A DNA stretch of 64,000 nucleotides from Gammaproteobacteria bacterium. Its GTDB lineage: Bacteria; Pseudomonadota; Gammaproteobacteria; Steroidobacterales; Steroidobacteraceae. Shown here in pieces: positions 1-12,343 of this stretch. The DNA lies in NCBI GenBank assembly GCA_028293745.1, contig JAQGOF010000127.1:1-64000 (forward strand), in the 5' to 3' direction. The notes beneath the pieces were generated by a model. The model was not told where the DNA came from, did no database searches, and was given only the letters and a program-made list of their open reading frames with translations. Within the stretch, counting starts at the first letter, position 1. Each line of letters begins with the position of its first letter. A program made the position numbers and the translations under genes.

Positions 1-2
1 AT

Positions 3-155
3 GCCCGGGATCTGCTCGGCGGCGCCGGCATCAGCGCCGAGTACGTCCCCATCCGCCACATGCTCAACCTGGAAAGCGTCATCACCTACGAAGGCACCGA
101 GACCATCCATCAACTCACCATCGGACGCGAGCTGACAGGCATCAACGCTTTCTGA
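3..155 (+). CDS. acyl-CoA dehydrogenase, glutaryl-CoA dehydrogenase-like (3' end only)
   Basis: Only the last 50 residues are in the window; the gene starts to the left. The fragment carries the C-terminal acyl-CoA dehydrogenase signature: a LLGGAGIS segment, then [17 protein letters not shown], whose Glu in YEGT is the usual position of the catalytic base in this subgroup, then a GREL-TGI-AF ending. The GI-x-AF terminus and the LGG-GIS segment resemble glutaryl-CoA dehydrogenase, a flavoprotein that oxidises and decarboxylates glutaryl-CoA to crotonyl-CoA. The fragment is too short to exclude another acyl-CoA dehydrogenase. It converges on iorB and overlaps its 3' end by 46 bases. Because the neighbours form an aromatic CoA pathway, it may act in the lower part of that route; this is inference. 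Confidence 0.8.
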
Positions 156-1705
156 GCCGAGCATTCTGAGGCGCACGCCGGGTGACTCGCCGCACCCAGC
201 GCGCTGATCTCGCGACGCAGAGTCACCCCTTCCTCATCCGCCAACGCCGCCTCGATCAGCCGCGCCAACACGGTGCCGCCATCCGACCTGGCTGCCAGCA
301 AGTCAACCTGCTCCAACAACGTCGAGAAGTTCCGCCATCCGCGCTCGTACGTCTCGCCGTATCCCTTGACGAGACGCTGTGCCTTGGCTAACTCCACCGC
401 GACCAGGTAATTGTCGGCGCCCAAACCCTCCATGCGGGCCAGCCAGGCTTCGATGCGGGCATTCTCCTCGTGGAAGCGCAAAGTCCCGCGCCGCCACCGT
501 TTCAATCCGCCCAGCATGTACAACATCAGGAAGCCGCTCAGGGTGCGTGTCCTGATCTGCCGCCCGGCGGTGAAATTCGCCAGCCACCGCCTGACCCGGG
601 GCGAGCCCAGAATCCAGGTACCCAGCCCAGCCGGCATCGTTCCGGCAATCTCCTCCACCCGCGGCTTCACGAACTCCGTGATGCCGAACAACTGACCGGG
701 TTCCGCGCGAATCTCGTCTTGCACCCGCGCGAATCGCGAACCGCGCGTCTTGAGATCTGCAACCCGAATGGTGTCTTCGAACGTCATCCACAATGCCAGA
801 CTGCGGGCTGTTGCCTGCAATAACGCGTACGAGCTCGCATCCGCCCAGAGGCGCGCCTCGAGAGCAGCGATGCGTTCCACGCGATCCAGGTAGACATCCG
901 CATAAGCAGGGTCCTGATAATCCAGCGTACGACGCGCCCCTTCCAACACGACAGGTTGTACCGCGGCCGGTAGTCGTCTGATGCGTTCCAGCAAGGGCTG
1001 CAGTACCGGTGTGCGGGCCTGCGTCGGCACTTCCTGCGACAACGCGCTCTTAACCTTTCCGGTGAATCCGCTATCGCCCCGCTGAGCGCGCTGACAGGCA
1101 TCCTCAAACGCCGCAAGATTCGTCGCGACCGCGATCCCGCTTTTCTTGATGGTCTCCTGGAAGTTCGTCTTGCGAAATGGCAACACGCCGGCGCCGCACA
1201 GAGCGCCCAGCAGGACCGAGCTGATCACGCTGTGATTGCGTTCCGCCGTTTCCTCCATGTCGAACAGGACCGCACGTTTTGCCTGGCTGCGCACGAGGTC
1301 CGTCAATCCTTCCGCATCCGCCGCTCCGCGACCCATCGCGCTCTTTTCGGCAATGGCGTAAGTGCGATGCGTGGAGGCAATGAGCGTGGTACGGTCGGGA
1401 GTCACCAGGCCGCGTTGGATTGCGCGGCCAGCCTCGGCGAGCTCAGATGCAATGACACAATCCACGTCGCCGGGAACCGGCATCAACGCCATGACGGGCG
1501 CGCGCCCTGCCTGCTCGGCAAGCGTACGCGGAAAGAACTCCAGGTAGTAGATTGTCGCGCCCGTGCGCTGAGCGACCCCGGGTACCGAGGTGGACTGCGC
1601 GATATAACCTTCCGCCTCGGCGATCTCGATGAGCCAGTCAGCGAGAACACCGCCGCCCTGCCCTCCAAGGGCCGCGATCGTGAGCTTGATCGGTCGCTCG
1701 GCCAT
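110..1705 (-). CDS. iorB: indolepyruvate oxidoreductase, beta subunit
   Basis: Protein of 531 residues. The N-terminal third is the gamma-type domain of 2-oxoacid:acceptor oxidoreductases, with the glycine-rich [12 protein letters not shown] segment near residues 14-25. A long C-terminal extension (roughly 200-500) is typical of the large IorB form in proteobacteria. It pairs with the alpha subunit just upstream (18-base gap) to decarboxylate an aryl 2-oxoacid to the aryl-acyl-CoA. In known family members the substrates are indolepyruvate and related arylpyruvates. Context (isatin-hydrolase-like gene upstream, 2-aminobenzoyl-CoA-type oxygenase divergent) raises the possibility that the real substrate is isatinate. 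The start ATG at 1705 begins [15 protein letters not shown]; its 3' end overlaps the convergent acyl-CoA dehydrogenase gene. Confidence 0.88.
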
Positions 1706-1723
1706 AGTGTGCTTCGATAGCCT

Positions 1724-3889
1724 CTAGAGTGCGTAGCGGAGTCGATTTCGCTCGCTGCGCCTTTGTAAACTGCCGATCACAGCGGACCGCACGGCGTTCG
1801 CGAAGCGATCCCACCGCGATGGGTTGTAAACCAACTCCGCGCGATAGAACGACGGGCACAGCACCGCCGCGTGCGCCACCTCGCCGCAAACGCCGCACCC
1901 GACACAACTATTGTCAACGTGGGCCACCGGATCGGTGCGCAAAGGATCCGGATTTTCCTTCACCGTCAGTGACGGACAGCCCGACAGGCGAATGCACGAG
2001 TGGTCTCCGGTACACGTATCCGGGTCAACCCCGAAACGCTCGCGAACGACGCGCTGGCCCTCCTTGATCGCCTTTCGCATGAGCGGTTTCACACGCCGCT
2101 GGCGGTTCAGCATGCATTCGCCATCGGCGACAATGACCTTGGGACCCCGAAATGGCGTGCTCAGCGCCTCGCGGAGCAGCTTCAGCGTTCCCTGCATATC
2201 GTATGTATGCGTCCGCCTGACCCATTTGACGCCAACACCCTTTACGGCATCGACGATCGAGTTGTTACCCTGTCGGTGCTCGTTAGCGGCGCGGGAAGAT
2301 GGAATGTCCTGTCCGCCAGTGGCCGCCGCGTAACCGTTATCGATGATGACGGTCAGATCGTCATGCTTGTTGAAGACGGCATTGCCGATTCCGCTGGTCA
2401 ATCCGTTATGCCAGAAACCACCGTCGCCCATGATGGATACTGCGCGCTTGCCGCCGTCCGTCCCGAACGCAGACGCACCCGCAGCGCCCAGGCCGTAGCC
2501 CATTATGCTGTTGCCCATGTTGAATGGCGGCAAGGTCGCGAAGGAATGACAGCCGATGTCCGCGCTGATGTGCAGCGGACCGGTTTCCTTCTGCAGGATC
2601 TTCATGGCTGCGAAGAATGGCCGCTCGGGACAGCCGGTGCACAGCCCCGAGGGCCGCGCAGGCACCAGGGCCGCAAGCTTGGCAGCAGCTTCCGCCGAAA
2701 CTGCAGGCTTGCGCGCGGGCACCGCTGCCTTGCTACCGGCCGCCAACTGCGCAGCCCATTGGTCGATGAATGCGCCAATGCCTTTGCGCAGCGCATCAAC
2801 CGTGTATTCACCGAACCGGGGCAGGACTTCCTTGCCGACTATCCGGGTGCTCAGGTCGTGCTGGTGAAGAATCTGGGTCGCGGCCTGCTCGATGAACTCC
2901 GGCTGCCCTTCTTCGACGATCAGTACCGCGCGCTTGCCGCTGCAGAACTGCACCCACTCCGCGGGTACGAGCGGATAGGTTGCATTCAATACATACAGTG
3001 GAATGCTGCTGTTGCCGAACGTATCGGCGCAACCCAGCAGTTCCATCGCACGCAGCGTATTGTTGTAGAGACCGCCCTGCAGAACGATGCCGATTGCCTG
3101 TGTCTCGGCTCGTCTTTCGCCGTCGATCAGCTCATTCAGCCCCGTTTCCGCAATGAAGCGGATGGCGGCCGGCAAGCGCTTCTCGATCTTTTCCTTCTCC
3201 TGCGCATACGTGGACGGTGGAAGAATGATCCGACTATAGTCACGTGAAGGAGCGGCCAGCGCATCGGCCGCCGAAAACGACGGCTTGCGGTTGTTCCTGG
3301 TGAAGAACCGGCCGTAAACGTGACAGGCCCGGATGCGCAGCATCAACATCACCGGCGTGTTGCTGGCTTCCGAGAGCTCGAAGGCCTTTTCGACCATGCG
3401 CGTGATGGCCGGCAACTGCGGCCGCGGATCGAGCAGCCACATCTGCGATTTCATCGCAAACGCATGCGTCCTCTCCTGCATGATGCTGGCGCCTTCGCCA
3501 TAATCCTCGCCGAGGATGATGAGCGCTCCCCCCTTCACGCCCGAAGAGGCGAGATTCGCGAGTGCATCGGACGCTACGTTCGTTCCAACAGTGGACTTCC
3601 AGGTGACGGCGCCGCGTAGCGGATAGTTGATCGACGCAGAGAGCATTGCCGCGGCAGTCGCCTCGGAAGCGCTGGCTTCGAAGTGCACCCCGAGCTCCTC
3701 GAGGATGCTCTGCGCGTCGGCGAGCACATCCATGAGGTGCGAAACGGGTGCGCCCTGATAGCCGCCGACATAGGCGACACCGGACTGCAACAGCGCCTTG
3801 GTAACGGCCAGAATTCCCTCACCGTGGAATTCCTCGCCCTCACCCAGGCGCAGTGTCTGGACTTCCTTGGCGAATGAGCGCTCGGCCAT
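1724..3889 (-). CDS. iorA: indolepyruvate ferredoxin oxidoreductase, alpha subunit
   Basis: Protein of 721 residues, the thiamine-diphosphate subunit. An N-terminal pyrimidine-binding domain is followed by the central region. The thiamine-diphosphate motif starts at GDGGFWHNG (about residue 488) and runs to VIIDN (about 519). The C-terminus is a ferredoxin-like domain with cysteines at about 626, 632, 638 and a second group C-x2-C-x2-C-x9-C-P at 662-678. The family oxidatively decarboxylates arylpyruvates with CoA. It is the second gene of a three-gene leftward unit: cyclase, iorA, iorB, with gaps of 28 and 18 bases. The first iron-sulfur motif shows only three cysteines in C-x5-C-x5-C-P spacing, which differs from a standard two-cluster ferredoxin. 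Substrate assignment beyond aryl 2-oxoacid is open. Confidence 0.9.
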   Translation of the reverse strand: MAERSFAKEVQTLRLGEGEEFHGEGILAVTKALLQSGVAYVGGYQGAPVSHLMDVLADAQSILEELGVHFEASASEATAAAMLSASINYPLRGAVTWKSTVGTNVASDALANLASSGVKGGALIILGEDYGEGASIMQERTHAFAMKSQMWLLDPRPQLPAITRMVEKAFELSEASNTPVMLMLRIRACHVYGRFFTRNNRKPSFSAADALAAPSRDYSRIILPPSTYAQEKEKIEKRLPAAIRFIAETGLNELIDGERRAETQAIGIVLQGGLYNNTLRAMELLGCADTFGNSSIPLYVLNATYPLVPAEWVQFCSGKRAVLIVEEGQPEFIEQAATQILHQHDLSTRIVGKEVLPRFGEYTVDALRKGIGAFIDQWAAQLAAGSKAAVPARKPAVSAEAAAKLAALVPARPSGLCTGCPERPFFAAMKILQKETGPLHISADIGCHSFATLPPFNMGNSIMGYGLGAAGASAFGTDGGKRAVSIMGDGGFWHNGLTSGIGNAVFNKHDDLTVIIDNGYAAATGGQDIPSSRAANEHRQGNNSIVDAVKGVGVKWVRRTHTYDMQGTLKLLREALSTPFRGPKVIVADGECMLNRQRRVKPLMRKAIKEGQRVVRERFGVDPDTCTGDHSCIRLSGCPSLTVKENPDPLRTDPVAHVDNSCVGCGVCGEVAHAAVLCPSFYRAELVYNPSRWDRFANAVRSAVIGSLQRRSERNRLRYAL

Positions 3890-3917
3890 CTTCGGTGACC
3901 CACCTTGTTCTAACGAT

Positions 3918-4706
3918 TCAGGCCGGCACCAGCGCCAACACGCGCAGCGGGCTGCCGGAGCCGTTGACGATCTTCAATGGAGGCGCAAACACCACAGCCC
4001 CGACCGGAGGCAATTGATCCAGGTTGGTCAAACTGGCCAGCCCGAATTTGTTGGAGCCGTGCATGATGGTATGGCACGGGAACGTCGGATCGAACCGGTA
4101 CGCCTGGCCGGCGTCCGTGCCGACAGTCTCGACGCCCACTCCGAGAATGTCGCGCTCCTTGGCAAGGAAGGGTACGCACTTCGGATCGAACCCCGGGGTG
4201 TGGGATCCGTCGGCGCCTGCATTCAGATAGGCCGCGGCGCCCTTGCGTTGCGACCAGTCAGTCCTGATCAGCACCCAGGCATGTGCGGGAATGCGCCCAT
4301 GCCGGCTCTCCCACTCCTCGACCACCTCGCGTGTCAGGAGGAAATCCGGATCGGCTTTCGCCTTGGCCGCAACATCGATGACGCAGGCCGGGCCAATGAA
4401 CCGGTCGACCGGGATGTTGTGCGTCGCGTTGTTGGCGTAATCCTTGCCCGTAACCCAGTGAATGGGGGCATCGAAGTGCGTGCCGGTGTGCTCGCCACAT
4501 TCGATATTGTTCCAGTACCAGGCAGGTCCCCGCTCGTCATACCGCGAGATTTCCTGAAGTGCGAACGCCTTCGAGTTCGCGAAAGGGGGCGGCAGCTGGA
4601 TGACCGGTGTCGCAGGCTCCAGTGGGACGGTCAGGTCGACTACCCGAATCCCCCCGCCGACGATGCCACCGACCAGTTGTGCCAAGGTTTGAAGAGAAGT
4701 GCTCAT
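3918..4706 (-). CDS. cyclase-family metal hydrolase, isatin hydrolase-like
   Basis: Protein of 262 residues in the cyclase / kynurenine-formamidase superfamily. The metal-site motif H-T-G-T-H-F-D-A-P-I-H spans residues 73-83 (His73, His77, Asp79, His83). It is preceded by an aromatic segment, RGPAWYWNN, at 59-67. That segment with the following CGEHTGTH and a later ETVGTDAGQA is, from memory, the pattern of isatin hydrolases, manganese enzymes that open isatin to isatinate. Kynurenine formamidase is the main alternative. The start ATG at 4706 has GGAAG five bases upstream; a longer open frame upstream lacks homology. It leads the iorAB unit and is divergent from the monooxygenase operon, so it likely supplies the aryl 2-oxoacid used next. 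Confidence 0.72.
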   Translation of the reverse strand: MSTSLQTLAQLVGGIVGGGIRVVDLTVPLEPATPVIQLPPPFANSKAFALQEISRYDERGPAWYWNNIECGEHTGTHFDAPIHWVTGKDYANNATHNIPVDRFIGPACVIDVAAKAKADPDFLLTREVVEEWESRHGRIPAHAWVLIRTDWSQRKGAAAYLNAGADGSHTPGFDPKCVPFLAKERDILGVGVETVGTDAGQAYRFDPTFPCHTIMHGSNKFGLASLTNLDQLPPVGAVVFAPPLKIVNGSGSPLRVLALVPA

Positions 4707-4736
4707 GAGTCTTCCGGGTGAGGGTCGTGAGGTCAA

Positions 4737-4772
4737 AGAATAATTGACACTTGAAGTACTTGGCAATATAAC
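4737..4772. promoter_or_regulatory. overlapping divergent promoters with shared palindrome
   Basis: Rightward: TTGACA at 4744-4749, a 17-base spacer, and TATAAC at 4767-4772, a near-consensus sigma-70 promoter for the monooxygenase operon. Leftward: TTGCCA reads from 4766 to 4761, and 17-18 bases further is TTATTC/TATTCT (4743-4737), a weaker promoter for the cyclase-iorAB unit. The two -35 boxes face each other and form the arms of an imperfect palindrome, TTGxCA...TGxCAA (4744-4766), with AAGTACTT (4754-4761) inside. One bound regulator could block both; the MarR protein encoded at 7949 is the obvious candidate. The sequence match is observed; regulation is inferred. Confidence 0.7.
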
Positions 4773-4845
4773 ATACGGCCGATGCTGGTGCCTATGATAG
4801 TGATATAGCGCTGGCGATATGGCTGCAACGAGGGGAACTGCCAGG

Positions 4846-7149
4846 ATGAGGCGAATCGTGTGCCTGGGCGGCGGCCCTGCCGGACTGTACGCCGCTATTC
4901 TGCTGCGCAAGGCGCTGCCGTCGGTACGCGTCGAAGTATACGAGCGGAACCGGCCCGACGACACTTTCGGCTGGGGAGTGGTCTTTTCCGATGAGACCAT
5001 GGGGAATTTCCAGGCCGCGGACCCCGAGACGCACGCCTCCATCCTTGCCAGCTTCCACCATTGGGACGACATCGCCATTCATTTTGGTGGCCGCCGCTTC
5101 ATGAGCGGAGGTCACGGTTTCGCTGGCATCAGCCGCAAGCGGCTGCTGAACCTGCTCCAGGAGCGGGCACGGGAGCTGGGCGTGCAGCAGTCCTTCCAGC
5201 ACGAAGTGGCCCCCGAGATGGGCCCCGAGATGAACAATATGGCCGCCTTTGAGGACGCCGATCTCATCATCGCGGCGGACGGCATCAACAGCCGGACCCG
5301 CAACGCCAATCCGGGGATCTTCGAGCCCAATGTCGATGTGCGGAAATGCCGTTTCATCTGGCTGGGCACAACCCAGAAATTCGATGCCTTCACCTTCGCC
5401 TTCGAACAGACGGAGCATGGTTGGTTCCAGATCCATGCGTATCAGTTCAGCAAGGATCTCTCGACAGTGATCGTCGAGACGCGCGAAGAGACCTGGAAGG
5501 CTCACGGGTTGGATCGCGCGAACACGGCGCAGTCCATCACCTTCTGCGAAAATCTCTTTGGCCGGTACCTCGGCGGTCACCGCCTGCAGAGCAACGCGAA
5601 TCACCTACGCGGCTCTGCTTGGCTGAATTTCAACCGGGTGACATGTAAGAAGTGGCATCACGGAAGGACCGTCCTTATCGGGGATGCCGCGCACACCGCA
5701 CATTTCTCCATTGGCTCGGGTACGAAGCTGGCCATGGAAGACGCCATCTCCCTGGTAAAGCACATCAGTGCGACGAACGATCTCGATGCCGCGCTCGGGG
5801 CGTATCACAAGGAACGTAACGTCGAAGTTCTCAAACTCCAGAGCGCCGCGCGCAATCGGATGGAGTGGTTTGAGAACGTTGCGCGCTATGTCCACCTGCC
5901 ACCTGAGCAATTTGCCTACAGCCTGCTGACCGGGAGTCAACGTATCGGTCATGAGAACCTGAAGCTGCGAGATCCCAGTTTCGTTGAAAGCTACGAGCGC
6001 TGGCTCGCGGGACGTGACGGTGCGGATGGACCCCGTCCGCCCATGTTCCTACCGTTCAAGCTACGGGGCCTGGAGCTCGCCAATCGCATCGTGGTGTCGC
6101 CGATGGCTCAGTACTGTGCGAAAGACGGTGTTCCGGATGACTGGCACCTCGTTCACTACGGCCATAGAGCGCTCGGCGGAGCTGGCCTCGTCTACACCGA
6201 GATGACCTGCGTTTCTCCGGAGGGCCGCATAACTCCCGGCTGCACGGGCCTGTGGAATGAGACACAACGGGATGCATGGAAGCGGATCGTGGAATTCGTA
6301 CGCCGCAACTCGCCCGCGAAGTTTTGCCTACAGTTGGGGCATTCCGGACGGAAAGGCTCCACGCAGGTCGGGTGGGAGAGCATGGACTACCCGCTTCCGC
6401 AGGGTAACTGGCCGATCTACGCGCCCTCGCCCATTCCTTATTATGAGGGCATCAGCCAACGGCCGCTCGAAATGACTCGCTCCGACATGGACAAGGTACG
6501 GGAAGATTTCGTCCGTGCGACTCGCCTTGGGCTGCAGGCGGGCTTCGATATGCTCGAGCTGCACATGGCACACGGGTACTTGCTTGGCTCGTTCCTATCT
6601 CCGCTGACCAACGTACGTACCGATGAATACGGCGGCAGTGTCGAGAACCGGCTGCGATTCCCGCTGGAGGTGCTCGAGGCAGTCAGGCATCAGTGGCCTG
6701 CTGACAAGCCGCTGTCGGTGCGCATCTCGGCGACTGACTGGGCCGAAGGTGGTTTGAGCGATGAGGATGCGCTGACCATCGTTCGTGCGTTCCGTGCCGC
6801 TGGCATCGACATGGTCGATGTGTCCACGGGGCAGACAGTCCCGTCGCAGAAGCCGGTGTATGGCCGCATGTGGCAGACACCCTTTGCCGATAAGATCCGC
6901 AACGAGATCGGCATCGCCACGATGGCCGTGGGCAACATCTACGAATGCGATCACGTCAATTCCATCATTGCGGCTGGACGGGCGGATCTGTGCGCGATCG
7001 CCCGCCCCCACCTGGCGAATCCGGCCTGGACCCTGGAAGCGGCCGCCAGCCAGGGCTATCGCCCGCAGTGGTGGCCGAAGCAGTATCTGTCGGGTAAGAG
7101 CCAGCTCGAGCGCAACTTCGAGCGCACGGCACAAGGGGGCCAGGTATGA
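4846..7149 (+). CDS. 2-aminobenzoyl-CoA monooxygenase/reductase type fusion (salicylyl-CoA 5-hydroxylase/oxidoreductase)
   Basis: Two enzymes in one chain of 767 residues. The N-terminal half is a class A FAD monooxygenase: a Rossmann [10 protein letters not shown] segment, a [11 protein letters not shown] segment, and [14 protein letters not shown] for the flavin ribityl site. The C-terminal half, from about residue 390, is an Old Yellow Enzyme-like NADH:flavin oxidoreductase ([11 protein letters not shown], later [10 protein letters not shown]). This order matches 2-aminobenzoyl-CoA monooxygenase/reductase of Azoarcus evansii, which hydroxylates and then reduces anthraniloyl-CoA to a non-aromatic oxo-cyclohexene acyl-CoA. 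Databases often name homologues salicylyl-CoA 5-hydroxylase. I chose ATG 4846 ([10 protein letters not shown]) because GAGGGG lies 10 bases upstream; ATG 4819 has no ribosome site. It overlaps the next gene by ATGA. Confidence 0.85.
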
Positions 7150-7934
7150 CTTCGAGCTCCGAATCGTCACGGCTTGCGGGCCTGCATGCGGTTGTCACCG
7201 GTGCGAACCGCGGAATCGGTGCGGTCATCGCCGCTGCGTTGGCAGCCGACGGCGTGCGCGTGTCCTTGCTGGGACGTGACGCGAGAACTCTCGAGCGGGT
7301 CGCACAGGAGTTGGGGGATTCACGCGCACTCGCGCTCACGACGGATGTGACCGACTCCACATCGGTCCGGAGTGCATTCGCTGCAGCACGCGAGCGCTTC
7401 GGCCCGATACAGATCCTGATCAACAACGCCGGCCAGGCTGCGAGCGCAAAGTTCACCGAAACCGACGAGGCGCTCTGGAACAGGTTGATTGCGGTCAACC
7501 TGAACGGCACGTATTTGTGTTCCCGGCAGGCCGTTCCCGACATGTTGCAAGCTGGATTCGGGCGGATCGTCAACATGGCGAGCATCGCCGGGCTGCGGGG
7601 AGCCCCGTATATTTCGGCCTATGTCAGCTCGAAGCACGCCGTCATAGGCCTGACGAGATCGTTGGCGTTGGAATACGCCGCGCGCAACATCACGGTGAAT
7701 GCAGTCTGCCCGGGCTATGTGGACACGGACATGGTCAAGAACGCGATTGCTAACATCGTGAGCAAGACAGGGCGCAGCGAGAGCGAAGCGCTTGCTGCGC
7801 TCGTTTCGGGCAATCCGCAGCGGCGCCTGATCGAGCCGCGCGAGGTTGCCGACACCGTAATGTGGCTGTGCCGGCCCGGCTCGGAGAGCGTGACCGGCCA
7901 GAGCATCGCACTGGCTGGTGGCGAAGTGACTTGA
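7146..7934 (+). CDS. short-chain dehydrogenase/reductase
   Basis: Protein of 262 residues of the classical SDR fold. Visible are the cofactor motif GANRGIG, the NNAG motif, a catalytic Ser in NMASIAG and the Y-x3-K pair in [10 protein letters not shown]. The pattern resembles 3-hydroxyacyl and 3-hydroxybutyrate dehydrogenases that use NAD(H). It is translationally coupled to the monooxygenase/reductase gene through an ATGA overlap, so it very likely acts on a CoA-bound intermediate after ring reduction, for instance oxidising or reducing a ring hydroxyl or keto group. The exact step cannot be read from the sequence. Confidence 0.85.
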
Positions 7935-7948
7935 GAAGGGGGAAACAA

Positions 7949-8461
7949 ATGTCGAAGGACAAGAGCACGCTCAAGCTGGTCGAGCCGCACGTGGATGCGG
8001 AAACCCGGGTGCATGACGATCATCACCTGTCGGTGCGGCTGTGGCTGCGCATGTTGAGTTGCACCAACCGCATCGAGAATTTCGTCCGCCAGAACCTGCA
8101 GGCCAATTTCGATACCACGCTGCCGCGATTCGACCTCATGGCACAGCTCGAGCGCGCCCCGCAGGGTCTGAAGATGAGCGAGCTGTCGCAGCGCATGATG
8201 GTCACGGGCGGCAATGTCACCGGCATCACGGACGGGCTGGAGAAAGAAGGCCTGGTAGTCCGCGAGGTGGATCCGGCCGACCGGCGCGTGTTCCGGGTGA
8301 AGCTGACGCCGGAGGGACAGAAGCAGTTCCGGCGCATGGCGGCCGAGCACGAGCAATGGATCATCGGATTGTTCGATGGCATGAGCTTGAAGCACAAGAA
8401 TCAGCTCGCCGAGCTGTTGGGCGATCTGAAGCGCCACATCAGCCAGTCATCCGAAGGGTAA
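7949..8461 (+). CDS. MarR-family transcriptional regulator
   Basis: Protein of 170 residues with a winged-helix MarR core. The recognition helix region reads [20 protein letters not shown], and the wing is [13 protein letters not shown]. The acidic-basic N-terminus of about 30 residues is common in MarR proteins that control aromatic-CoA operons (such as the BadR, CouR and HcaR groups), many of which respond to an aryl-CoA thioester. It lies inside the operon with a purine-rich ribosome site (GAAGGGGGAA) upstream of ATG 7949. Its probable target is the shared palindrome between the divergent promoters near 4744-4766, giving feedback control of both units. Target and ligand are inference. Confidence 0.88.
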
Positions 8462-8474
8462 GGGCTGCGTAACC

Positions 8475-9278
8475 ATGGCTGACTTCAATCCCGCACATTT
8501 TCAGTGGCGTCAGGAGGGCCGGGTGGGTGTCATTACACTCAACCGTCCCGACCGCAAGAATCCGCTGACGTTCGAATCGTATGCTGAGTTACGGGATTTG
8601 TTCCGCGCACTAATCAAGGTGGACGATGTCCGGGCCATCGTCCTGACCGGGGCGGGCGGCAACTTCTGCTCCGGCGGCGATGTGCACGAGATCATCGGGC
8701 CGCTCACGAAGATGAACTATCAGCAGTTGCTGGATTTCACGCGCATGACCGGCGACCTGGTCAAGGCAATGCGCCATTGTCCGCAGCCGATCGTGGCGGC
8801 CGTCGATGGAGTGTGTGCAGGTGCCGGTGCAATTCTCGCAATGGCATCCGACCTTCGTCTCGGGACAGCCCGGACGAAGACAGCCTTCCTGTTCACGCGT
8901 GTCGGTCTCGCCGGATGCGACATGGGCGCCTGCGCCCTGTTGCCCCGGATCATCGGTCACGGCCGCGCGTCCGAGCTGTTATTCACTGGCCGGTCAATGT
9001 CCGCTGACGAGGCAGCGGCGTGGGGCTTTTTCAATCGGATTGTTGCGGCCGAGAGCGTGTTGGATGAGTCGTTGCAACTCGCTGCCGAACTTGCTACGGG
9101 TCCGACATTTGCGCACGCAATGACCAAGAAGATGCTGCACGCGGAATGGGACATGTCCGTGGATGAAGCGATCGATGCGGAAGCCACGGCGCAGGCCATC
9201 TGTATGCAGACCGAGGACTTTGGCCGCGCGTACCGCGCGTTTGCGGCCAAGCAGAAGCCGCAATTCGAGGGAAATTGA
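8475..9278 (+). CDS. enoyl-CoA hydratase/isomerase family protein
   Basis: Protein of 267 residues with the crotonase fold. The oxyanion-hole segment GNFCSGGD and the second one, [17 protein letters not shown], are present. Of the two catalytic glutamates of true hydratases, the second aligns with Glu in RASELLFTG. The first is not evident: the segment [18 protein letters not shown] has Thr or Arg there and places an Asp (in GCDMG) near the active site instead. It could therefore be a hydratase with altered chemistry or a hydrolase that opens the reduced ring, as crotonase-fold ring-cleaving enzymes do. It is 13 bases after marR and 4 bases before the acyl-CoA dehydrogenase gene, in one operon. 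Confidence 0.85.
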
Positions 9279-9282
9279 AACC

Positions 9283-10482
9283 GTGCGCAGGCGTGACTTC
9301 CTCGAATGGCCCTTCTTCACGACGGCGCACCGTGACCTGGCCGAACGGGTGGACTCATGGGCCACACAGCACTTCAGTGGCGAGGCGCACGCGGAAGATC
9401 GCGATTCCGTCGACGCAGCCTGCCGCGAACGGGTGCGCGATCTCGGTCGTGCCGGCTGGACACGTTACTCGGTGCCCTTTGACCCTGAGGCACCCGTTGC
9501 CGAGTTCGATGTTCGAGCGCTGGCCCTGATCAGGGAGACGCTCGCGTGGCACGACGGGCTTGCCGATTTCGCTTTTGCGATGCAGGGTTTGGGCAGCGGA
9601 GCCATCTCTCTCGCCGGCTCACATGAGATCAAGCATCGATACCTGCCGCGCGTCGCCGCTGGCGAAGCCATTGCCGCATTCGCGCTTTCGGAGCCCGATG
9701 CCGGCTCGGATGTTGCCGCGATCAACTGCAGCGCCCGCCGGGAGGGCGATGCGTACGTGTTGGACGGTCAGAAGACCTGGATCTCCAATGGTGGGATCGC
9801 AGACTTCTATTGTGTCTTCGCGCGTACCAGCCCCGCTGAGCATCGTCCGGATGGCTCGGTGACAGCCCGGGGAATCAGCGCCTTCGTCGTCGATGCCCAG
9901 ACTCCCGGATTCTCGATTGCCAAGCGCATCGATGTCATCGCGCCCCATCCGCTCGCCACCATTTCGTTCTCGGGGTGTCGCATCCCCGCGGCGCAGCGGC
10001 TGGGCCCTGAGGGCGAGGGCTTCAAGCTGGCGATGCGCACGCTCGATGTCTTTCGGACCTCGGTTGCCGGTGCCGCACTGGGCTTTGCGCAGCGTGCCCT
10101 CGACGAGGCACTCAAACATTCTCTCGCGCGCCCGATGTTCGGCAAAACACTTTCGGACCTGCAGTTGACGCAGGCAGCGCTGGCTGACATGGCAACTGAA
10201 GTTGACGCGGCTCGATTGCAGACGTACCGCGCGGCCTGGCTGCGCGACCGTGGCGAGACCGTAACCAAGGAAGTCGCGATGGCAAAGATGGCGGCGACCG
10301 AATCGGCGCAACGCGCAATTGACCGCGCGGTGCAGCTTTTTGGCGGCCGGGGTGTCGTTCACGGCGAGACCGTCGAGCGCCTCTATCGCGACATCCGCGC
10401 ATTACGTATCTATGAAGGGGCCACAGAAGTGCAGAAACTGATCATCGCGCGCGAGTTGCTCAACAGCGCGCGCAGGACTTGA
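9283..10482 (+). CDS. acyl-CoA dehydrogenase
   Basis: Protein of 399 residues with the standard three-domain flavoenzyme layout. Signatures are [12 protein letters not shown] in the middle domain, [14 protein letters not shown], and the C-terminal [11 protein letters not shown] and [18 protein letters not shown], whose YEG Glu is the expected catalytic base. The start is GTG 9283 ([12 protein letters not shown]) with GAGGGA ten bases upstream; a longer reading frame that extends back into the hydratase gene has no family similarity. It would desaturate an acyl-CoA in the ring beta-oxidation sequence, passing electrons to electron-transfer flavoprotein. Its substrate is unknown. Confidence 0.88.
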
Positions 10483-10485
10483 CCG

Positions 10486-10884
10486 ATGCAAGTTCTGAAA
10501 CCCGCCGATTGGCCGCGACCCAACGGTTACAGCAACGGCATCGCCGCCACGGGACGCCAGATCTTCGTGGCCGGCCAGGTGGGGTGGGACGCCGAATGCC
10601 GCTTCAACAGCACCCGGCTGGCCGACCAGGTGAAGCAGGCTCTGCGGAACATCTGTGCCGTGCTCGCGGAGGCGAAGGCCGGACCCGAGCACATCGTGCG
10701 GCTGACCTGGTATCTCACCAGCCGCGACGAGTATCTCTCGGAGCTGGAAAGCATCGGGGCGGCGTATCGGGATGTCATGGGTAAGAACTTCCCTGTCATG
10801 AGCGTCGTGCAGGTGGTTGCTCTGATGGAAGCACAGGCGAAAGTTGAAATCGAGGCGACCGCGGTCGTGCCTCCGCAAAACTAG
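10486..10884 (+). CDS. Rid-family (YjgF/YER057c/UK114) protein
   Basis: Protein of 132 residues with the Rid fold: N-terminal PRPNGYSNGI, GRQIFVAGQVGWD, and VEIEATAVV at the end. Archetypal RidA hydrolyses enamines and imines to ketones plus ammonia, using an Arg in a P-x-R-(S/T) segment. Here the matching segment is FPVMSVVQV, so that Arg is replaced by Met and the protein belongs to a divergent Rid subgroup. In this operon the ring-reduction product expected from anthraniloyl-CoA is an enamine, so a role in releasing the amino group as ammonia is attractive but unproven. It begins three bases after the acyl-CoA dehydrogenase stop. Confidence 0.85.
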   Translation: MQVLKPADWPRPNGYSNGIAATGRQIFVAGQVGWDAECRFNSTRLADQVKQALRNICAVLAEAKAGPEHIVRLTWYLTSRDEYLSELESIGAAYRDVMGKNFPVMSVVQVVALMEAQAKVEIEATAVVPPQN

Positions 10885-10891
10885 TGCCACC

Positions 10892-12343
10892 ATGTGGCGG
10901 CCACCCGAGCGCATTCGATACAACGCCCACGGCGGCCGGTGGCCGGATGCTGCCCAGGCCGCCGCCGCACGCCTCTTTTCCCCGATAAAGGTCGGGCCCA
11001 TCACGCTGGCCCAGCGAACCTGGGTGCCCGCGATGGTTCCCTGGCGGGCGAGCGAGACTGGATTCGTCACTCCCGAAGTGTTGGAGTGGTATGAACGCTT
11101 TGCGCGCGGCCGGCCGGGCGCGATTGTCGTGGAGGCCACGGGAATCAGGGATGTGCCCAGCGGGCCCTTGCTGCGCGCCGGTCACGATCGGTTCCTGCCC
11201 GGCCTGCGTGATCTGGTCCGTGTCGTGCGCACGGCCAGCGAGGGAGAGACCCGGCTGTTCATCCAGTTGATCGACTTCCTGGCGATCCGGCGTCGGCCGC
11301 TGCCCTCCCGATTTTTCGGCGAATTCCTGGCGATCACTGCGCAACACCGGGCCGCGTTCGCGGATCCGGAGGCGACGGACGCTGAAGTGCGTTCGTGGCT
11401 CGTTTCGCTGCCTCCGGAAGACGCCGCGAAAGTGCTCGATGCGCGTGAGCTCAACTCGCTCGAGTTTGGAGCGCGTGAGCGTGTGACAGACACACATCTG
11501 GATCAGATTCGGGATCTGCCGGCGCAATTGCCAATACTGTTCGGCAACGCTGCACGACGCTCTCGTGAGGCAGGATTTGACGGTGTGGAGCTGCATTTCG
11601 CTCACGCATACACGATGGCATCATTCCTGTCGCGGTCAAACACACGCGACGATGGCTACGGAGGCGCGCTAACCAACAGAGTGCGGCTTCCGTTGGAAGT
11701 GTATTCGCGCGTGCGGGCGGAGGTGGGGCAGGATTTTGTGGTTGGATGCCGGTTCCTTGCGGACGAGTGCATCGCAGGCGGCTCCAATGCCGATGATGCC
11801 GCATTCTTCGGAACCGAGTTTGCACATGCCGGAATGGACTTCCTGTCGCTGTCACGAGGGGGAAAGTTCGACGACGCAAAGCAGCCGAAGATTGGCGACG
11901 CGGCATATCCCTACACTGGCCGCAGCGGCTACGAGTGCATGCCCTCCTACTATTCCGATGCGGCCGGCCCCTTCGGCCGCAACCTGGAATCCACCGCGCG
12001 AGTCCGGGAGGCCGTGCGCCAGAGTGGATTTGCGACGCCCGTGGTGGCGGCCGGTGGCATCCACAGCTTTGAGCAGGCCGAAGCGTGCCTTGCCAGCGGG
12101 AAGGCCGACATTGTCGGTTTCGCGCGCCAGGCCCTTGCCGACCCTGATTGGTTCCGCAAGGTTGTTACGGGCCACGGCTCGCAGGTGCGACTGTGCCTGT
12201 ACACCAACTACTGCGAAGCCCTCGACCAGCGCCATCGCCAGGTGACCTGCGAGCTGTGGGATCGCGAAGCGCTCGATGAGCCGGGTGTCAGGCTATCCGC
12301 CGATGGTAAAAGGCGGTTGACCCCGCCGCCATGGAAGCCGTAA
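10892..12343 (+). CDS. NADH:flavin oxidoreductase, Old Yellow Enzyme family
   Basis: Protein of 483 residues, a TIM-barrel flavin oxidoreductase. It has LFSPIKVGPITLAQRTWVPA at the first strand, GFDGVELHFAHAYTMASFLS with the usual His, GYGGALTNRVRLPLEV, and the FMN-phosphate strand VVAAGGIHSF followed by VGFARQALADP. An insert of about 90 residues lies between strands (about 125-215). The C-terminal CLYTNYCEALDQ...VTC has three cysteines but not the complete CxxC-type cluster site of 2,4-dienoyl-CoA reductase. It is last in the rightward operon (7 bases after the Rid gene) and probably reduces an activated double bond. It is a stand-alone relative of the reductase half of the fusion protein. 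Confidence 0.83.
   Translation: MWRPPERIRYNAHGGRWPDAAQAAAARLFSPIKVGPITLAQRTWVPAMVPWRASETGFVTPEVLEWYERFARGRPGAIVVEATGIRDVPSGPLLRAGHDRFLPGLRDLVRVVRTASEGETRLFIQLIDFLAIRRRPLPSRFFGEFLAITAQHRAAFADPEATDAEVRSWLVSLPPEDAAKVLDARELNSLEFGARERVTDTHLDQIRDLPAQLPILFGNAARRSREAGFDGVELHFAHAYTMASFLSRSNTRDDGYGGALTNRVRLPLEVYSRVRAEVGQDFVVGCRFLADECIAGGSNADDAAFFGTEFAHAGMDFLSLSRGGKFDDAKQPKIGDAAYPYTGRSGYECMPSYYSDAAGPFGRNLESTARVREAVRQSGFATPVVAAGGIHSFEQAEACLASGKADIVGFARQALADPDWFRKVVTGHGSQVRLCLYTNYCEALDQRHRQVTCELWDREALDEPGVRLSADGKRRLTPPPWKP

Follow-up and report, generated by a model that had tools for sequence, protein, structure and literature searches.

Gene content of the divergent cluster

The stretch of DNA analysed here (the window) comprises 64,000 bases of a gammaproteobacterium of the family Steroidobacteraceae (assembly GCA_028293745.1, contig JAQGOF010000127.1) and contains at 110-12343 a divergent cluster of ten genes which is probably a module for the catabolism of isatin, a compound that arises when indole or auxin is degraded. 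The minus arm carries, in order of transcription, the gene of a cyclase-family protein of the isatin hydrolase (iadI) type (3918..4706), iorA (1724..3889) and iorB (110..1705), the latter two coding for iadA-type and iadB-type subunits of a 2-oxoacid oxidoreductase. An intergenic region of 112 bases (4707..4818) separates them from the plus arm, which begins with the gene of a fusion protein of the 2-aminobenzoyl-CoA monooxygenase/reductase (ACMR) type (4819..7149, start maybe at 4846). It is followed on the plus strand by genes for a short-chain dehydrogenase (SDR; 7146..7934), a MarR regulator resembling those in other ACMR clusters (7949..8461), an enoyl-CoA hydratase family protein (8475..9278; 486 bits to NF006107, cut-off 330), an acyl-CoA dehydrogenase with a GTG start placed by reading (9283..10482), a RidA-family protein, by family an enamine/imine hydrolase (10486..10884), and an FMN reductase of the old yellow enzyme type (OYE; 10892..12343, PF00724, start also placed by reading). 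The SDR, MarR, acyl-CoA dehydrogenase and RidA assignments come from profile matches. A sequence-only reading of this DNA had put three activities, an isatin-hydrolase-like enzyme, an indolepyruvate-type oxidoreductase and an ACMR-type fusion, side by side in a unit at 1-7149; family profiles and relatives of solved structure confirmed all three at that place, while the extent proposed for the unit was too short, since it runs on to 12343.

The host assembly consists of 259 contigs with 6.9 Mb in total and has an estimated completeness of 91%. Base 1 of the window is also the first base of its contig (C214, 86,480 bases), where the assembly breaks off, and anything downstream of iorB is therefore missing from it. 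On the other side the OYE gene is apparently the last of the cluster, because seven of the ten larger proteins sampled from 15235 on belong to cell maintenance (gyrase A, an S1-domain protein, NAD-dependent DNA ligase, SMC and polynucleotide phosphorylase among them). In the region 4500-5000 there are two sigma-70-like sites directed towards the cyclase gene, where shuffled sequences led us to expect 0.1; these are consensus matches only. An Rfam search of the window gave no match.

The cyclase and its relation to isatin hydrolases

The cyclase gene starts with the ATG at 4706; the longer version of the open reading frame (386 amino acids) overruns the divergent gene. In phmmer comparisons the protein scored 335 bits to 5nmp, 330 to 5nnb and 277 to 4j0n, and 26 bits to the kynurenine formamidase 4cog. 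We took 5nnb as LaIHA, given that all residues mentioned in the available text of PMC6117287 agree with its numbering, and 4j0n, called isatin hydrolase B, as LaIHB. Nine of the 11 active-site residues of LaIHA are shared, and at the remaining two positions F and A replace Y204 and Q219 and match 4j0n. Both the manganese-binding motif and the catalytic His/Asp expected of an isatin hydrolase are present, and the motif, HxG[TA]HxDxPxH, was found in all 47 cyclases examined near IorA. Activity on isatin is reported for LaIHA and RsIHA in the accessible part of PMC6117287. The window cyclase thus has its sequence and metal-binding motif in common with LaIHA, LaIHB and RsIHA, and no sequence difference points to another reaction; it is the gene context that is unusual. 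The predicted conversion of isatin to isatinate is well supported by these comparisons, in line with the sequence-only reading, as isatin hydrolases rank first among the relatives of solved structure and the active site is kept.

The oxidoreductase and the ACMR fusion

IorB, with a POR domain and a C-terminal DUF6537, matches NF006179 with 660 bits (cut-off 348). IorA has a TPP_enzyme_C match and a C-terminal CxxCxxC..CP iron-sulfur motif, the CxxCxxC part of which is present in 111 of 111 IorA rows of our tree set; its score to TIGR03336, 276 bits, is below the cut-off of 651, and we therefore regard it as a member of a divergent subfamily. The pair thus has what is expected of a 2-oxoacid oxidoreductase: a subunit binding thiamine pyrophosphate (TPP), an iron-sulfur motif and a POR-domain partner. 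No sequence relative of IorA was found in PDB at E<=1e-5. The chemistry of phenylglyoxylate and indolepyruvate oxidoreductases is the conversion of an aryl 2-oxoacid and CoA to acyl-CoA and CO2. The kind of chemistry would be alike for IorAB of the window, which differs from these enzymes in belonging to the DUF6537-bearing subfamily.

The ACMR-type protein, an FAD monooxygenase fused to an OYE-type reductase (FAD_binding_3 and Oxidored_FMN), scored 1262 bits to NF006101, above the cut-off of 1078, which bears out the third assignment of the sequence-only reading. The NCBIfam name of this family is bifunctional salicylyl-CoA 5-hydroxylase/oxidoreductase. We infer 2-aminobenzoyl-CoA rather than salicylyl-CoA as the substrate; an amino substrate fits because RidA is present and no gentisate-type gene is found among the ten cluster genes. 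In the aerobic 2-aminobenzoyl-CoA pathway of Azoarcus evansii, ACMR is followed by steps of beta-oxidation type, according to the available part of a review (PMC4539516). That order of steps is a common feature of the two systems; the pathway of A. evansii has a 2-aminobenzoate-CoA ligase, whereas the contig of the window has none and carries an isatin hydrolase and IorAB in its place. As a candidate for the auxin sensor IadR the MarR protein was rejected, with 23 bits each to 3cdh (IadR of Ruegeria pomeroyi according to the accessible text of PMC9613470) and 7kfo, the query having begun 60 bases before the likely start.

CoA ligases and IadD homologues in the host genome

The host genome has 38 AMP-binding (PF00501) matches, all of them outside the window's contig. 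The only protein of the benzoate-CoA ligase family (TIGR02262) above the cut-off is encoded on another contig, C86, beside boxB and boxC. This region (L163, 6331-14219) is a box operon for aerobic benzoate use, with boxC, boxB, the benzoate-CoA ligase and an aromatic acid transporter. The statement of the sequence-only reading that no ligase gene is in the window accordingly extends to the contig; it does not extend to the genome. We further compared 27 distinct proteins of the 38 AMP-binding matches with 51 ligases from ACMR clusters, whose median mutual identity is 54%: the host's best match was always the box ligase, at 33.5-41.3%. A whole-genome search likewise gave the box-operon ligase as the best ACMR-type match, with 35% identity, so that a dedicated 2-aminobenzoate-CoA ligase was found neither on the contig nor in this 91%-complete genome. 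An IadF-like AMP ligase on contig C45 (L242, 11742-13484), 58.6% identical to the ligase of an Azospirillum iad locus, was set aside; the 20 kb around it gave no other match to the iad reference proteins.

A close homologue of the oxygenase component IadD was also absent from the host genome search, the best Rieske protein being 38% identical (E=1e-97), although at this completeness of the assembly the absence is uncertain. The gene of this Rieske protein, at the edge of contig C146, was rejected as the missing iadD, being located among cobalamin genes, and the idea that the window is part of a complete iad locus was abandoned for want of a close IadD homologue. Five of 71 searched genomes have an IadD match at E<=1e-100, and none of the 14 genomes with IorA near ACMR (IorA-type genomes, host included) is among them. 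The module is therefore not merely carried along with auxin oxygenation, and it would seem often to be untied to that of the IadD type.

Conservation of the cluster at IorA loci

A scan of a genome collection confirmed 580 relatives of IorA, and the results on IorA loci that follow refer to the best 80 of them. In the closest, L036 (83%), the whole divergent cluster is repeated, and it is repeated again in the next closest, L037 (80%), where the cyclase is shortened; the OYE gene is kept in both. The IorA of the window clusters with those of L036 and L037 in a quick tree with a support of 99 (SH-like approximate likelihood ratio test, SH-aLRT). Downstream of iorB, L037 contains a gene for a 3-oxoadipyl-CoA-thiolase-like protein (335 amino acids, aligned to positions 1 to 278-279 of a profile of about 400), a FadB-like gene and, further on, a LysR regulator. 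No CoA ligase or IadD match was found in L037 within 10 kb on either side (22 kb).

Flanks of 9 kb or more on either side are available for 45 of the loci; of these, 26 contain a cyclase, 16 an ACMR and 13 both, and 10 encode a Rieske protein of the IadD type with 55% identity or more. Among the 16 with ACMR, 12 lack a Rieske match of at least 80 bits. When all 80 loci are considered, ACMR occurs at 22, with a benzoate-CoA-ligase-type gene in four and none in 18, and box genes, the partners in benzoyl-CoA oxidation, are found near IorA at none. Cyclase, IorAB and ACMR thus occur together in several lineages, so that the survey of co-occurrence suggested by the sequence-only reading speaks for its idea.

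The surroundings of IorAB are diverse. An Azospirillum plasmid (L117) combines IorAB, IadCDE-type genes, an AMP ligase and the ACMR arm, and a Caballeronia locus (L118) combines IorAB, a thioesterase, ACMR, a cupin dioxygenase and a cyclase. In L118 (19378-27387), L190, L193, L102 and L107 IorAB and ACMR are accompanied by genes for a thioesterase, a gentisate-dioxygenase-like cupin, a fumarylacetoacetate-hydrolase-family protein and a carbon-nitrogen hydrolase, and in some of them also for Asp/Glu racemases. This gene content suggests a second version of the downstream pathway, in which the ring would be cleaved via 5-hydroxyanthranilate instead of being reduced. Three loci of Comamonadaceae (L080, L089 and L091) have an OYE 61-63% identical to that of the window and, about 8-10 kb upstream, a Rieske protein 40-41% identical to IadD, possibly an oxygenase for another indole. 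The deep-branching IorAB of Variovorax boronicumulans (L116, 19998-30574) has genes for an alpha-hydroxy-acid oxidase and a member of the enolase superfamily as neighbours, a context as would be expected of a route from a mandelate-type compound via an arylglyoxylate to aroyl-CoA. At L113, where IorA occurs and cyclase and ACMR do not, the neighbouring carboxylase and acyl-CoA dehydrogenase genes show no evident connection with aromatic compounds. L120 (15001-21301) belongs to a Variovorax plasmid that carries copies of IS1071; here the annotated gene next to iorA, in the place expected for iorB, is a transposase gene of this element, in a gene table that is incomplete.

Ligase and IorAB at ACMR loci

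An ACMR match above the cut-off was present in 64 of 398 genomes of the phylum. Our survey of full-length ACMR comprised 72 places in 70 genomes outside the host, seven of them scoring below the family cut-off, and IorA was found about 12 kb away or closer at 13 of the 72. Because of this, and of the repetition in L036 and L037, the arrangement is more than chance. For the comparison with ligases we counted the 65 loci whose flanks reach 5 kb or more on either side (seven were dropped) and IorA up to 12 kb from ACMR; both IorA and ligase were recognised by similarity to the host proteins, so distant ligases could be missed. The fetched stretches gave 45 loci with ligase only, nine with IorA only, three with both and eight with neither (P=1.1e-4). 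After G548 and G428 were moved from the last group to the ligase group, their ligases being 8.6 and 11 kb away, the corrected counts within about 12 kb were 47, nine, three and six (Fisher P=2.5e-5). A cyclase is nearby at 7 of 12 IorA-type loci and at 1 of 45 with ligase only. Next to ACMR, IorAB tends to stand in for the CoA ligase; at the level of whole genomes this exclusion is softer. An ACMR-type ligase at E<=1e-60 was found in none of G555, G319 and G635 (54 of 69 candidates were scored in G555), and in G555 and G635 IorAB lies at most 4 kb from ACMR.

Comparison with iad loci

The iad loci for auxin degradation in Variovorax, Achromobacter and Bradyrhizobium contain iadA/iadB and iadI, which correspond to iorA/iorB and the cyclase of the window. 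According to the accessible text of PMC9613470, iadA and iadB (iorA/iorB-type) are exclusive markers of iad loci. Both markers have counterparts in the window: L075, L076 and L077, three loci in which IadCDE is present as well, have IorA proteins sharing 63-66% and IorB proteins sharing 47-55% identity with those of the window, and for the Achromobacter locus L075 the identity is 62% for the cyclase and 63% for IorA. The differences are that no close IadD homologue was found in the host genome (38% at best), and hence no recognisable IadDE oxygenase, the enzyme with which auxin breakdown begins, that cyclase and IorAB are divergent to an ACMR lower pathway and that the MarR protein is not close to IadR.

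The available portions of the iad literature name no reaction for IadAB. In Bradyrhizobium japonicum with indole-3-acetic acid, iotA is up 30.7-fold and iorB 7.64-fold (PMC3788728, available part), and for Pseudomonas LY1 the accessible text of PMC8383072 places iadA and iadB in a cluster which it compares with iac genes. Among titles and abstract openings, with subscription journals mostly outside this range, we found no statement of a step from isatinate to 2-aminobenzoyl-CoA. The published scheme, as far as the available text goes, draws isatinate as converted to anthranilate, which is a detected product of the route, and the available part of the Variovorax study describes iadI as a cyclase annotated as kynurenine formamidase. 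In Variovorax without IadI, C8H7NO2, the formula of dioxindole, is reported there to accumulate, and strong accumulation of C8H7NO3, the formula of isatinate, only in a strain without an iad locus that overexpresses iadC-K2. This region by its name leaves out iadAB, and for that reason the build-up fits a missing consumer of isatinate.

Discussion

We consider it probable, at roughly 70%, that the cluster is a module for isatin catabolism in which IorAB oxidises isatinate to 2-aminobenzoyl-CoA without a ligase. The sequence-only reading had suggested such a route, and the results bear it out in part; it gains support from the exchange of ligase and IorAB at ACMR loci. The cyclase would hydrolyse isatin to isatinate, which is 2-aminophenylglyoxylate, and IorAB, with TPP and iron-sulfur centres, would convert isatinate and CoA to 2-aminobenzoyl-CoA and CO2 by oxidative decarboxylation, in place of a ligase. 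ACMR would then hydroxylate and reduce the ring, and the SDR, enoyl-CoA hydratase, acyl-CoA dehydrogenase, RidA and OYE may carry out deamination and a cleavage resembling beta-oxidation, perhaps also with thiolase-like and FadB-like proteins such as those encoded after iorB in L037. Every reaction in the host, as well as the substrate and product of IorAB in any organism, is here a prediction from genes and their context.

Several observations weigh against this interpretation. The box benzoate-CoA ligase encoded elsewhere in the host genome could act on anthranilate. In the cyclase of L037 (9492-9965) counterparts exist only for about residues 3-116 and 221-262 of the window cyclase; about residues 117-220, catalytic ones included, are lacking, by deletion or assembly error. 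Sixteen of the 45 IorA loci with full flanks have no cyclase or ACMR nearby, and the IorAB family is therefore not tied to the isatin route alone. The loci behind the exclusion of ligase and IorA are not independent, as a single genus (g324) accounts for 8 of the 13 IorA-type genomes, and when counted by genus, 41 genera divide into 30 with ligase only, three with IorA only, three with both and five with neither (P=0.077). Ten of the 13 IorA-type genomes other than the host keep an ACMR-type ligase somewhere (at least 52% identity to the query), three of these ligases being in the same cluster as IorA/ACMR and one beside a second ACMR. Finally, according to the accessible part of the Variovorax study, iadC-K2 alone restores anthranilate, and iadAB are therefore not needed for anthranilate formation in that organism.

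Four other explanations were considered. The cyclase could open dioxindole to 2-aminomandelate, which would be oxidised to isatinate before IorAB acts. The accumulation of a compound with the formula of dioxindole in Variovorax without IadI is in accordance with this variant, which overlaps with the route proposed above; we regard it as unlikely, though not negligible, because the best solved relatives of the cyclase are isatin hydrolases, with reported activity of LaIHA and RsIHA on isatin. Less likely still is that isatinate gives free anthranilate, from which a promiscuous benzoate-CoA ligase of the box operon (C86) makes 2-aminobenzoyl-CoA, IorAB doing something else. Detection of anthranilate in the iad route, the single TIGR02262 ligase of the host and the ligases kept by ten of 13 IorA-type genomes all speak for it, but the host ligase is situated beside boxB and boxC, is remote from the ligases of ACMR clusters, and the scheme gives no reason why IorAB should lie near ACMR, among others in G555 and G635, two genomes in which our search gave no ACMR-type ligase.

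The family name would rather point to indole-3-pyruvate or another aryl 2-oxoacid as the substrate of IorAB, yielding a different acyl-CoA for a separate purpose, and both the hydroxy-acid oxidase and enolase-superfamily neighbours in L116 and the 16 full-flank loci without cyclase or ACMR are compatible with this. We nevertheless find it improbable, as IorAB accompanies isatin hydrolase and ACMR even where a close IadD homologue is missing, and an arylacetyl-CoA would presumably not be a substrate of ACMR. Kynurenine formamidase shares the fold family of the cyclase, and a cluster for breakdown of tryptophan via kynurenine and anthranilate would agree with the weak arylformamidase match of 35 bits; the cut-off of TIGR03035 is, however, 223 bits, and the 26 bits to formamidase structures compare with 277-335 to isatin hydrolases, so we rejected this identity and consider such a cluster extremely unlikely.

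From these results the ligase-free route from isatin remains our preferred explanation of the cluster. As to the family as a whole, it seems fairly probable that IorAB enzymes bearing DUF6537 act as isatinate:acceptor oxidoreductases (CoA-2-aminobenzoylating). This would be the role of IadAB in bacteria that degrade auxin, and it would also operate in isatin modules standing alone, free of IadCDE, in several proteobacterial lineages. If this is true, the marker genes iadA and iadB would gain a defined substrate and the feeding of ACMR clusters without ligase would be explained. It would also mean an entry into the known 2-aminobenzoyl-CoA (anthranilate) pathway which skips the ATP-using step, so that the release of free anthranilate would be avoided and the ATP of activation saved.

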